DNA from: Terriglobia bacterium
GTDB taxonomy: Bacteria; Acidobacteriota; Terriglobia; Terriglobales; Acidobacteriaceae
Reading direction: 5' to 3'
DNA: 64,000 bases
Assembly (NCBI GenBank): GCA_020073665.1
Contig: JAIQEU010000001.1
Location: 186,001-250,000, forward strand
The translations under genes and the position numbers were made by a program. Positions 59,140 to 64,000 of the stretch are shown one piece after another. How positions within the stretch are numbered: position 1 is the first letter of the stretch; the number at the start of each line of letters is the position of its first letter. The notes beneath the pieces were generated by a model. That model saw only the letters and a program-made list of their open reading frames with translations. It had not been told where the DNA came from and did no database searches.

Positions 59140-59174
59140 TTCTTCTTGTCCCCGTGTACAATCTTGAGTTCCTA

Positions 59175-59864
59175 ATGCCCGAGTCCCCGCAGCGCAAACT
59201 CATCATCGCCATCGACGGCCCCGCCGGCGCCGGCAAGAGCACCATCGCATCCCGCCTCGCCCGCAAGCTGGGATACATTAACCTCGAAAGCGGCGCCATG
59301 TATCGCGCTCTGGCCCTCAAAGCCATCGAGTGGGACGTCTCCTTCGACGACGAAGCTGCTCTGCTCCGGTTGGCCCTCAATTCCCGCATCCAGCTCGAAC
59401 CCAGCGTGGGCGGCAACCGCGTCCTGCTCGACGGCCGCGACGTCACCCCCCGCGTTCGTGAGCAGGACGTCAGCGAAGCCGCCTCCCGCGTCTCCGTTCA
59501 TCCCAAGGTTCGTGAGTGGATGGTTGCCCGCCAGCAGGAAATGGGCGACACGGGCGGCATCGTGATGGAAGGCCGGGACATCGGCACCGTGGTCTTTCCC
59601 CACGCCGACGTAAAAATCTTCCTCGATGCCGATCCCGTGATCCGCGAACAGCGCCGCCTGCAGCAGCAGCACCTGATGGGCAAAGCCGCCGAAGCCACCG
59701 CCGCCGAGTTGCGCGAACGCGACCGCCGCGACCGCACCCGCGCCGCTTCCCCGCTGGTCCCCGCCGCCGATGCACTCGTCCTCGACTCCACCGGCATGTC
59801 AGAAGATGAAGTACTGCAGAGAGTAGAAGAACTGGTCGAACGAAAGCGGATCGCCGCCGGCTAG
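59175..59864 (+). CDS. cmk: Cytidylate kinase
   Basis: 229 residues, P-loop kinase converting (d)CMP to (d)CDP. The P-loop is IAIDGPAGAGKSTIASRLA. LESGAMYRALAL and GIVMEGRDIGTVVFP are Cmk signatures, and the lid is RERDRRDRTRAASPL. ATG 59175 gives the standard N-terminus; a GTG at 59154 would add seven residues. Confidence 0.95.
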   Translation: MPESPQRKLIIAIDGPAGAGKSTIASRLARKLGYINLESGAMYRALALKAIEWDVSFDDEAALLRLALNSRIQLEPSVGGNRVLLDGRDVTPRVREQDVSEAASRVSVHPKVREWMVARQQEMGDTGGIVMEGRDIGTVVFPHADVKIFLDADPVIREQRRLQQQHLMGKAAEATAAELRERDRRDRTRAASPLVPAADALVLDSTGMSEDEVLQRVEELVERKRIAAG

Positions 59865-60050: not shown

Positions 60051-60077
60051 TTGGTGTAGTCGCGATTTTTCGCCAAC
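60051..60077. repeat. REP-like repeat R1 (half unit)
   Basis: TTGGTGTAGTCGCGATTTTT followed by CGCCAAC. It matches the right arm of R2 (61022-61047) closely. Only one arm is present. It lies in the 348-bp gap between cmk and the PEP-CTERM gene; the rest of that gap shows no other feature. Confidence 0.65.
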
Positions 60078-60212
60078 TATTGTCCCCCGTACCCGCCAGT
60101 TGACTAGCGGCCTGGGTGGGAGCACAATCCTGCTTATCTTTTCGTTCGGCAGTTACGTTTGATGCTGAGCGACGCGCCCCTTTTCGAATCTTGTCCCTTC
60201 GGGAGGCACTCC

Positions 60213-60884
60213 ATGAAAAGGATTCCAATTCTCCTCAGCGTGTTGCTAGCCTTGGCTGCTTTTTCCAGCGCCGACACTATCAATCTAACTTCTGGATCCG
60301 GGAAGCTATATCCCTTTGAGGTAGCTCCCGGATTTACTTTTCATTTCTATGGTGGTGGTTATGGCATCGCCATCCCCGCAGCCCTGGACGACCCCGCGGG
60401 CAGCCTGTGGGATTGCCACCCATGCGATCCTACGCATTTTGACTCTCCACTCTTCTTCGCTGCGGGCGATTTCACGCTCGACAAGCAGTTTGTATCAGGG
60501 ATGATCGGCTTCAATGCTGTCTCGTTTGTCTCGAGTCTTGCCCCCAATGGCGTTCTGACCATTAAGTTCACAGCGACTCCTGACCTTTACCTGCTTCTGG
60601 GCATTTCTCACCAAACCGGTCCCTTCGTCTGGGGAAACCCAAACCAGCACTGGTACATCACGGCGCAGTTCACGCCTTTCAGCGGAAGCGGGTTGTCTGG
60701 CTTCTATACGTTCGCGGGAGCGACGTTTAGCAGCTCCAGTTCGCCCATCCCTGAGCCTGCGACGATAGTGCTCTTCGGAACCGGAGTGTTGCCCATACTG
60801 TTCGGGGTTCGAAGAAGGTTTTCCCGAACCAATCCCAGAATCAAAGGTTCGATGGACGGATCTCTTCCCAACCCAGACGCCTAG
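60213..60884 (+). CDS. PEP-CTERM sorting-signal protein
   Basis: 223 residues: signal peptide (PILLSVLLALAAFSSAD), a beta-rich secreted body, and near the C-terminus SPIPEPATIVLFGTGVLPIL followed by FGVRRRF. That is a PEP motif, membrane helix and Arg cluster, the PEP-CTERM signal processed by exosortase. Unusually, ~20 residues follow the Arg cluster. GGGAGG precedes ATG 60213. No exosortase or EPS genes are in the window. Less GC-rich than the flanking housekeeping genes. Confidence 0.85.
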   Translation: MKRIPILLSVLLALAAFSSADTINLTSGSGKLYPFEVAPGFTFHFYGGGYGIAIPAALDDPAGSLWDCHPCDPTHFDSPLFFAAGDFTLDKQFVSGMIGFNAVSFVSSLAPNGVLTIKFTATPDLYLLLGISHQTGPFVWGNPNQHWYITAQFTPFSGSGLSGFYTFAGATFSSSSSPIPEPATIVLFGTGVLPILFGVRRRFSRTNPRIKGSMDGSLPNPDA

Positions 60885-60980
60885 TGGCGCGTCCAGCCTG
60901 ATTCGTTGCCTAAGCCGGGAGGCCCTGAAAGTGCGCGACTTCTCGCCGCGCCCCAGCGCAGGAGTCAGGCGCACCCCTCG

Positions 60981-61047
60981 TTGACGTAAATCAGCGCGAT
61001 TACACCAATAACCAGGTCAATGAGTGTAATCGCGATTTTTCGCCAAC
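60981..61047. repeat. REP-like palindromic repeat R2
   Basis: Left arm CGCGATTACACCAATAACC and right arm GGTCAATGAGTGTAATCGCG then ATTTTTCGCCAAC form an imperfect inverted repeat. It lies between the PEP-CTERM and FG-GAP genes, which converge. Full-length copies recur at 62385 and 63883. Confidence 0.7.
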
Positions 61048-61100
61048 GGGGTCTCGTCCGCAGAATGCCCTCGGTTCGGAGTAGTCTTTTCAGCGGGTCA

Positions 61101-62240
61101 CTAGGGGCAGTGACCTGTGTTCAGTTCGACAGCAACACCTAGGGAGATGTCCGCAAGAGCCAAGTCAGGACGACCGTCGAGATTGAAATCTCCAACCGCA
61201 AAGTGCAACGCGTCAGGCGGGGAGTTGGAAGAGACTATTGCCGTTTGGAATGTGCCGTCTCCGTTTCCAATTAGCACGGATACCAAACCGAAGTCTTGGT
61301 TCATCGCCAGATCCAGGTGGTGATCGCCATTGAAGTCACCAATCTTGATGTCAGTAGGCACAAATCCTGCGGGATAATCGGTGAACCTCTGAAACGTTCC
61401 GTCGCCGTTGCCGAGGAAAACATCCGCACCTAATCCGGCAACAGCCAAGTCAATCTTCCCGTCCTCATTGAAGTCGCCAGCTACAGCTCCGAAGCCCCCG
61501 CCGGAGCTAGTTGCATAGGCACCGTTGAAACTGAAAGTGCCGTCGCCGTTGCCCAGGTAAATCGAGACGCCCTTGCCAACGCCTTGGGCGTTGACGGTAA
61601 CAATATCCAGTTTCCCGTCGCCATTGAGGTCAGCGGCAAGCAAGGCCGAAGGCCTATAGCTGCCGGGCGAGATCAGGAAAGGGCCGCGCATAGTGCCATC
61701 GCCATTTCCGAACAAAGCAGAAATATGGTTGGCGAACCATGGAGCCAGAACGGCATCGAGGTTTCCGTCTCCATTGAAATCACCTACTACCACTGTACTA
61801 AGTTGCTGCACCTGGCCCGCACCTCGCGAACCATGACGGAAAGTCCCGTCTCCATTGCCGAGAAACACATCAGCCCCCTCATCTCCACCGGCCGGAGGGT
61901 TACCGACCACAATTACATCTAGATTGCCGTCATTGTTGAAGTCACCCGCGGCCAACCCCTGGGCCCCGAAGGCTGCCTTGTAATGGACGACTGGCTGGAA
62001 TGTGCCGTCGCCATTTCCCAAGATGATGTCGAGGTTACCTTCATATTTTGGGGATTCGGTATTGGCAACCGCTACGGCGATATCGGGGAAGCCATCGTGA
62101 TTAAAGTCCGCTACTATCAGGTCCCAGGCGCTTACGAAGTTCCCGACATATTGGTAAGGCGCGAAGCATTGCCCTACTACAGTGGGCGCGAGGGCAAAGC
62201 AGGTAGCAGCAGAGAGTACTGCCGCCAAGAAGGCTTTCAT
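61101..62240 (-). CDS. Secreted FG-GAP/VCBS-repeat protein, seven-bladed propeller
   Basis: 379 residues with a signal peptide (FLAAVLSAATCFALAPTVVG). Seven repeats each hold a calcium-binding-like loop of the type GDFNxDGxxDxxV (for example ADFNHDGFPDIAVAV, GDFNNDGNLDVIVV, GDFNLDGRPDLALA), with GNGDGTF linkers. Seven units make one closed integrin-like propeller. GGAGGA lies just before the ATG. Binding partner unknown. Confidence 0.88.
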   Translation of the reverse strand: MKAFLAAVLSAATCFALAPTVVGQCFAPYQYVGNFVSAWDLIVADFNHDGFPDIAVAVANTESPKYEGNLDIILGNGDGTFQPVVHYKAAFGAQGLAAGDFNNDGNLDVIVVGNPPAGGDEGADVFLGNGDGTFRHGSRGAGQVQQLSTVVVGDFNGDGNLDAVLAPWFANHISALFGNGDGTMRGPFLISPGSYRPSALLAADLNGDGKLDIVTVNAQGVGKGVSIYLGNGDGTFSFNGAYATSSGGGFGAVAGDFNEDGKIDLAVAGLGADVFLGNGDGTFQRFTDYPAGFVPTDIKIGDFNGDHHLDLAMNQDFGLVSVLIGNGDGTFQTAIVSSNSPPDALHFAVGDFNLDGRPDLALADISLGVAVELNTGHCP

Positions 62241-62384
62241 CCCGTCCTCCTACACAAAGATCCTTGCGCCGAACTTGATCCTGCATCGGCTAAGCTATAG
62301 TGTCGGGTTTCCCATTCAGAACGCAGGAAGTCTGCTCTGTCCAAGGCGCCCTGTCAAGGTGCAACGCGGCAACTAAAAGGAATA

Positions 62385-62455
62385 GTTGGCGATAACAGGC
62401 GATTACACTTAAAACCCAAGGTCAATGAGTGTAATGGCGATGTTACGCCCGTTGA
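62385..62455. repeat. REP-like palindromic repeat R3
   Basis: GTTGGCGATAACAGGCGATT...GGTCAATGAGTGTAATGGCG then ATGTTACGCC. Left and right arms are inverted copies. Lies in the 328-bp gap between the divergent FG-GAP and di-heme genes; nothing else clear in the gap. Confidence 0.7.
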
Positions 62456-62568
62456 GAGACACCTTATCGTTCGGGCGAATCAATATTGCTGCTTCAGGGC
62501 GGTTGCGCGAATCATAGGAACCGGTGTAGAGTTGGCGCCGTTTTGCGGTCGGACAGGAGGTCTCCGGT

Positions 62569-63834
62569 ATGTTCACCCAACGCCACTTCCCTGTTTTTCC
62601 AACAATCGTCGCGTTTGCTGTTCTGGCCGTGCTCTGCTGTGGCAGCGCTCAGGCGCAGCAATTAGGCGGACCGCTGCCAAACCTCGATCCGCAAGAGGCC
62701 AAGTGGTACACCGCCGGGCAGAAAATGTTTTTCAGGCTGTGGGGCGTGAAGGAGGGACTGGGGCCGGTAACCACCGATGGCGGGTGCGTCCGTTGCCACA
62801 AATCACCGGTCATTGGTGGCGGCGCGGCGCGGCTTTCGACTTACTTCGGTCTGACCAATCCTGACGGTTCTTTCGACCAGTCTTATCTGGGTGGCCCGTT
62901 CCTGCAACCCTTCGGCACCGTCGTGCCTCCGAGCTGCACGATTCCGGGAGAGATAATCCCGGCGGGGGCGACGGTGGAAAAGCGCTTGACCTCGCCGCTG
63001 TTCGGGTTCGGCCTGATCGATGCTATCGCCGACGCCGACATTCTGAATCAGGTCACATTCGAGCTCAACAACTATCAGGCCGACGGCATTCACGGCATGG
63101 CCAACATGGAACTTGACTACCATTCTCCTCCGCTGCTGCGGCCGGGCCGGTTCGGGAGAAAAGCGCAACAGCCTACACTGTTGCAGCAAGTGTCCAGTAA
63201 CTTCGCGCACGACCTGGGAATTACCAACCCCCTGGTGCCACTCCCGGACTGCTCGCAGGGAAACTGCAGCATTAATGCCAATTGCATGCTTCCGCCTGAT
63301 CCCAACAGCCGTAACACTACCAGCAACGGACCGGGGATTCTCGATCTTTCGCACTACGAACGTTTCCTGGCACCCCCGCCGCCCCCAATTCCGGGACAGC
63401 CGGGACAAGCGATCTTCACCTCGGTCGGCTGCATCGAATGTCATCTGCCGAGTTACCACACTCCCACCCAGGTGTTTTTCGACATTGATTTGAAAGGCAC
63501 CCAGTTTGGGCCCAGTCCATCGTTGAGCAACCAGCCGGTGAATCTGTATTCCGATCTGCTGCTGCACGACATGGGCAAGCTGAACGCCGGGGCGTTCCCT
63601 GCCAACACCCTGATCACTGCCCAAGCTACGCAGCAGATGTGGCGGACGACTCCGCTGTGGGGCACCTCGGTGCGCACCGTGTTCTGGCACGACGGCAAAA
63701 CGAAGGACATACCTTCGGCGATCCTGCAGCACAGCCCCGACGGCACCGGCGAAGCGGCGGCGGTGATTGGGCGGTATAAGGCCTTGTCGCCCAGCGATCA
63801 GGCCGCGCTGATTGCGTTTGTGGCGTCGCTGTAG
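62569..63834 (+). CDS. Di-heme oxidoreductase family protein (MauG/DHOR-like)
   Basis: 421 residues, signal peptide VAFAVLAVLCCGSAQAQ. Two c-type heme sites, CVRCH (about residue 70) and CIECH (about residue 290). LFGFGLIDAIADADILNQ and LLLHDMGKLNAG with the terminal LWGTSVRTVFWHDGKTKDI are typical of the DHOR family related to cytochrome c peroxidases and once called thiol oxidoreductases. Periplasmic; substrate unknown. Flanked by repeats R3 and R4. Confidence 0.87.
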   Translation: MFTQRHFPVFPTIVAFAVLAVLCCGSAQAQQLGGPLPNLDPQEAKWYTAGQKMFFRLWGVKEGLGPVTTDGGCVRCHKSPVIGGGAARLSTYFGLTNPDGSFDQSYLGGPFLQPFGTVVPPSCTIPGEIIPAGATVEKRLTSPLFGFGLIDAIADADILNQVTFELNNYQADGIHGMANMELDYHSPPLLRPGRFGRKAQQPTLLQQVSSNFAHDLGITNPLVPLPDCSQGNCSINANCMLPPDPNSRNTTSNGPGILDLSHYERFLAPPPPPIPGQPGQAIFTSVGCIECHLPSYHTPTQVFFDIDLKGTQFGPSPSLSNQPVNLYSDLLLHDMGKLNAGAFPANTLITAQATQQMWRTTPLWGTSVRTVFWHDGKTKDIPSAILQHSPDGTGEAAAVIGRYKALSPSDQAALIAFVASL

Positions 63835-63882
63835 GGTGAGGGCGCTCGTGCAATGGTAGCCTGAACGCTTAGGACGCTCAAT

Positions 63883-63958
63883 TGTTGTAAACAGGCGTTT
63901 ACACTCATTGACCCCTGGGCCGGAAGGGGGTTTGGAGTGTAATGGCGACGTTACGCCA
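63883..63958. repeat. REP-like palindromic repeat R4
   Basis: TGTTGTAAACAGGCGTTTAC, then ACTCATTGACC, a GC-rich centre, and AGTGTAATGGCGACGTTACG followed by CC. Same arms as R2 and R3 with a different centre. Sits 49 bp after the di-heme gene, near the right end of the window. Confidence 0.7.
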
Positions 63959-64000
63959 GCGCTCGGGCAGAGGGTAACGGAACCTACTATACTGCCCAGA

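Follow-up and report, generated by a model that had tools for sequence, protein, structure and literature searches.

Directly after cmk in the window analysed here, the whole 64,000-nucleotide stretch of a Terriglobia bacterium genome (contig C27:186001-250000 of genome G000; 5.42 Mb, 62 contigs), single unrelated genes alternate with short inverted repeats, and the question that this locus raises is whether the repeats are palindromes of the REPIN type or junctions within an array of gene cassettes. Our analysis makes it reasonably probable that they form the junctions between mobile, arrayed single-gene cassettes, with two heterospecific sites, A and B, that would be acted on by a trans-acting tyrosine recombinase. 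The original prediction placed four related palindromic elements, R1 to R4, in this tract. All four are present as placed (Table 1) and R3 and R4 are complete A-centre-B elements, but R1 consists of the right half only (B core), its A half not rising above background, and the A half of R2 carries a 2-nt insertion. The arms do pair as was proposed, but each element is built from two inverted core sites with unpaired spacers and not from one palindrome. The product of the first cassette gene scores 19.4 bits against the Pfam PEP-CTERM model, just below its cut-off of 20.7, and lies above the cut-off of TIGR02595. A weak Rfam match to tfoR within the same gene (window positions 60343-60444; 22 bits against a gathering score of 70) is attributed to chance.

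Table 1. Features of the cassette array and the probable dif site. Positions are those of the window unless another contig is named.
Feature	Position	Strand	Description
cmk	59154..59864	+	Chromosomal gene directly before the array, outside it
R1	60051..60077	+	Lone B core site (TTGGTGTAGT-CGCGAT-TTTTCGCCAAC); opens the array after cmk
Cassette gene 1	60213..60884	+	PEP-CTERM sorting-signal protein, 223 aa
R2	60980..61047	+	A half 60980-61008, centre, B core 61021-61047
Cassette gene 2	61101..62240	-	FG-GAP repeat protein, 379 aa
R3	62385..62452	+	A core 62385-62411, centre, B core 62426-62452
Cassette gene 3	62569..63834	+	Di-haem oxidoreductase-like protein, 421 aa; DHOR match
R4	63881..63960	+	A core 63881-63907, centre, B core 63934-63960
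Probable dif	G000 C54:156698-156722 (L126)		Equivalents in the relatives G049, G028, G032 and G017 are L127-L130

Each element comprises two 27-bp core sites, A and B, that stand back to back and face away from each other around a short centre (mostly 10-50 nt; median 24 bp in G000). From the centre outward a core consists of a 10-nt inner arm (L box), a 6-nt spacer and an 11-nt outer arm (R box). Most genomes have TGAGTGTAAT as the L box, and the relative G028 has TTGGTGTAAT, altered on both halves together; the R box reads NTT[A/T]C[G/A]NCA... With the element written in one polarity the spacer of the left half (A) is always CGCCTG and that of the right half (B) mostly [G/C]GCGAT or GGGGAT. 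The arms of A and B are thus alike and pair with each other, and the spacers (CAGGCG for A, mostly ATCGCC or ATCGCG for B) stay unpaired. When cores were assigned to A or B by their spacer, none of the 52 two-half elements of G000 was of the A-A or B-B type, and the outcome was the same across three genomes.

A search of the whole genome with the right arm, allowing up to 3 mismatches, gave 135 matches versus 3 for a reversed control pattern, so that a lack of other copies is ruled out, though within the 64 kb the elements are indeed found nowhere outside the tract, as originally stated. About 670 kb around the matches was taken for element analysis, and classification by spacer yielded 138 elements, 52 with two halves and 86 with one half scored. 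The elements are clustered, with a median gap of 1.05 kb, and neighbours at most 8 kb apart have equal polarity in 100 of 101 cases (p 8e-29). The arrangement predicted from the window, in which single elements and single genes alternate, is also the genome-wide one: 48 of the 54 gaps with a confidently scored gene contain one gene and 6 contain multiple genes, the best ORF filling a median of 77% of the gap. Arrays start with a lone B in 20 cases versus a lone A in 1, and end with a lone A in 12 versus a lone B in 7 (start-versus-end contrast, Fisher p 1e-4), from which we conclude that the repeated unit is B-gene-A; the 7 lone B sites at array ends and the lone sites within arrays are exceptions. 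Gene direction relative to element polarity divides 34:14 in confident single-gene gaps and 48:36 across all gaps, and because the latter is near even we do not use an orientation bias as evidence.

Some contigs of G000 (C8, C55, C56, C61 and C62, several of them short) end in common cassette flanks that are 98-100% identical, indicating that the assembly breaks at duplicated cassettes and that the real arrays are probably longer. In addition, a stretch of about 180-270 bp that is 90-96% identical precedes B cores that are followed by three different genes (G000 C3:27449-27718, C45:3663-3921 and C56:9135-9317), and this could possibly be an attI-like leader or a mobile left border.

As single strands R2, R3 and R4 fold better than shuffled sequences (z -2.9 to -4.2), and the inner arms are a little more complementary inside an element than across elements (0.845 vs 0.814, p=0.001). 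Covariation of the outer arms within an element was absent (pairing 0.567 within vs 0.594 between elements), which leaves whole-element folding putative, and the complementarity of the 8-nt flanks within an element is at background level. An RNA element with covarying stems, which had been raised alongside the prediction, was rejected since covariation is slight and the Rfam search gave no family above its gathering score.

Near-identical flanks within G000 are joined to different partners, and the switch falls inside the element. Its position was mapped on 480 distinct sites from G000 and relatives, using pairs that are alike on one side only. Among 43 pairs that share the centre and not the gene flank (independent by site, possibly of common ancestry) the L boxes were alike above chance (0.90 vs 0.78, p<0.001), which holds for A and B taken separately, and the spacer (p 0.61) and R box (p 0.53) were at chance. 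In the 8 pairs, subject to the same proviso, that share the gene flank and not the centre, the R box (p<0.001) and spacer (p 0.004) were shared and the L box weakly so (p 0.018). The L box thus follows the centre and the spacer and R box follow the gene flank, placing the switch at the L-box/spacer edge of both cores, so that both core sites would recombine, as expected for site-specific recombination. An early idea of breakpoints within the centre was dropped after this mapping.

Could the repeats be passive, that is, copies of an old mobile element left between genes, whose neighbours are shuffled by gene conversion or ordinary homologous recombination among the copies? Near-identical centres recur in many elements and no dedicated enzyme was found, both of which would suit such a history, but it would not predict a polarity of 100:1, the total lack of A-A and B-B, single-gene units, lone B starts and lone A ends, or one precise switch point, and we regard it as decidedly unlikely. 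The simplest account of the fixed polarity, the lack of A-A and B-B elements, the B-gene-A units and the switches at the spacer edge would be site-specific recombination.

In the mechanism that we propose, a cassette would consist of a gene flanked by a B core and, at its opposite end, an A core. The arms of A and B are similar enough that one recombinase could bind both, and the spacers would be incompatible. Strand exchange by a trans-acting tyrosine recombinase would take place where L box and spacer meet, between two A sites or between two B sites, and genes and short centres would be swapped as alternating modules, as in a natural form of recombinase-mediated cassette exchange. Polarity would stay fixed because A could not recombine with B. 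Judging from the sequences, the junctions would have arisen by site-specific recombination, the enzyme would be of the tyrosine class and the cassettes may be mobile at present. Against this mechanism, no recombinase could be tied to the arrays, and neither an excised circle nor an empty site was observed in the genomes compared.

The cassettes carry varied accessory genes: 65 of their proteins match 80 Pfam families, which include TPR proteins, protein kinases, cation efflux proteins, aldo/keto reductases and MFS transporters. One 184-aa cassette (C42) is found in three genera, in G000, G049 (85% amino-acid identity) and G028 (64%); in each of them A lies 5' and B 3' of the gene, and the neighbours and centres differ. 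Homologues of more than 50% identity nearly always keep their direction relative to A and B; below 50% it is random. Together with the single-gene gaps, the uniform polarity and the recombinant junctions inside the sites, the sharing of one cassette by three genera strongly supports the cassette arrays that the original prediction had called to mind.

An exact-match scan of 84,980 species with the B core returned 50 stretches, all from Acidobacteriota MAGs (Terriglobia, Acidobacteriaceae, Ca. Sulfotelmatobacter). The elements are present in other genera of the same Acidobacteriota family, with 0 to 84 per genome at two mismatches, counts that in relatives are lower bounds as the search pattern was tuned to G000. 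The genomes compared, among them G017, G028, G032 and G049, are of other genera than the source, nearly all drafts and mostly MAGs. Viral contigs, plasmids and phage collections gave 0 element matches. A gene-shuffling system of its own, different from integrons, is probable for this Acidobacteriota family.

The prediction had also offered REPIN-mediated gene acquisition, which did not stand up. Here REP/REPIN-like elements would be moved by a Y1 (HUH) transposase via single-stranded intermediates, with genes lying between two hairpins in IS200/IS605-like units. Like REPINs, the elements lie between genes as inverted repeats in pairs; the single cores of G028 come close to being palindromes and often have GTAG in front of them, and Y1 genes are common in the family. 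However, the L box of G000 lacks this palindromy, the five Y1_Tnp (RAYT-type) genes of that genome all lie more than 1.5 kb from the nearest element, Y1 and element counts over 45 genomes are uncorrelated (Spearman 0.24, p=0.12), and the switch points lie at the L-box/spacer edge and not outside the hairpins. In published REP families head-head, tail-tail and single arrangements occur together (PMC3733652), in contrast to the uniform polarity, asymmetric A/B spacers and single-gene cassettes found here. As the elements fail the REPIN-defining features tested, the RAYT link and symmetry, and are of uniform polarity, we rejected REPIN/RAYT, and transport by a Y1 transposase appears to us very improbable.

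Integrons are the main textbook gene-cassette system, and in their attC sites the crossover position is G^TT, in RYYYAAC ... GTTRRRY boxes. The arrays could represent a derived integron with unusual attC sites, CALIN-like clusters and an integron integrase lost or encoded elsewhere, recombining folded single strands. Like attC, the elements have an outer box, an unpaired spacer, an inner box and a variable loop, and they are oriented, potentially hairpin-forming double core sites whose consensus differs by species; they border single genes of diverse accessory types, the outcome is comparable to integron arrays (PMC9024848, PMC8618304), and Acidobacteriota are known to have integrons (PMC8352920, PMC8618304). 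On the other hand, no intI above the TIGR02249 cut-off was found in G000 or in the 61 genomes searched, 37 of them of the same family, and a standard integron integrase was rejected for this reason. The boxes do not fit RYYYAAC/GTTRRRY, and the junctions fall on the L-box side of both A and B, unlike those of attC, which recombines through its R box with L-box events being very rare (PMC4792948). In place of one platform there are dozens of small, dispersed arrays, with conserved L boxes, fixed spacers and genes in both orientations. The elements fail the integron-defining features tested (integrase, box consensus and single crossover box), and a derived integron is in our judgement unlikely.

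The tyrosine recombinases near arrays of G000, G028 and G049, of which those within the regions taken around elements were compared in sequence, are mostly unrelated to one another and do not form one family. One that lies inside an array of G049 was rejected as the enzyme of the system: it has relatives in 6 of 75 genomes, none of them G000 or G028, and does not follow the number of elements. A frameshifted tyrosine recombinase gene (L117:10827-11894, on contig C18 of G049) sits between element runs of opposite polarity, this locus being one of very few polarity switches seen. The short contig L066 (G000 C18:15600-18400) carries an IS91-like transposase gene and an adjoining tyrosine recombinase fragment, and may be foreign to the genome. 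Tandem tyrosine recombinases beside one array were also rejected as a dedicated enzyme, as they are Xer-type and most likely the housekeeping XerC and XerD.

XerC and XerD are the sole recognisable tyrosine recombinases common to the element-rich relatives examined. Their genes stand in tandem in G028 (L108:7493-9631, contig C1), where a cassette array lies within 66 bp of xerC, and in G000 (L064:11322-13177, contig C2), with an element 2.4 kb away. The probable dif of the family, TGTCCGATAA-CAGGTA-TTATGTAAA, is usually present as a single copy per genome and has weak arm similarity to the core sites; CAGG is common to dif and A. Its spacer varies between genera, and genomes with the dif spacer NNRGNN hold more cassette elements (Mann-Whitney p 0.001, uncorrected for kinship). 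Had the A spacer come from dif, A would be expected to follow dif in the genomes with CAAGTA or GAAGCA; instead A stays constant while the dif spacer changes. An origin of the A spacer from dif was accordingly rejected, and host XerC/XerD remains only a candidate for the enzyme.

If our reading of the elements as cassette junctions were correct, cassette capture would have evolved more than once: the outcome would be that of integrons, reached in each genome through dozens of arrays with paired directional sites and without an integrase that can be recognised. As a search with the A/B motif leads straight to cassettes, the accessory genes of a soil phylum that is abundant but poorly represented in culture could be surveyed systematically, and the system could supply a natural two-site cassette-exchange enzyme.

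From the point of view of known systems, recombinase-mediated cassette exchange is a laboratory technique with heterospecific lox or FRT sites, in which a gene placed between two sites with the same arms but incompatible spacers can be replaced through a double exchange without changing its direction. The A/B arrays differ from it in being natural and in holding many cassettes. The CTX phage attP likewise has two oppositely oriented cores around a short segment, which can fold together as a single site (PMC3089051), but the elements described here occur in more than 100 chromosomal copies, with no phage or viral match and no evidence of integration at dif. In the pdif (Xer) modules of Acinetobacter, C and D modules alternate, spacers must match, and modules are flanked by outer or inner arms (PMC13141974); chromosomal dif-module islands have been reported as well (PMC12907356). 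Our arrays resemble them in having genes between inversely oriented cores with 6-nt spacers and alternating modules, the outer arms flanking genes and the inner arms flanking centres, and in the exchange between like spacers that we infer from the junctions. They differ in that only two fixed spacer classes exist, short centres (median 24 bp in G000) make up every other module, polarity is uniform and the sites do not track the host dif. A literature search, with most subscription papers outside its reach, returned no description of such a system. It may thus be, with a chance that we would place a little short of even, that these arrays represent, after integrons and Xer/dif modules, a third gene-cassette system in nature, one that would be confined to a single Acidobacteriota lineage and use two heterospecific core sites with fixed, incompatible spacers for exchange in trans.
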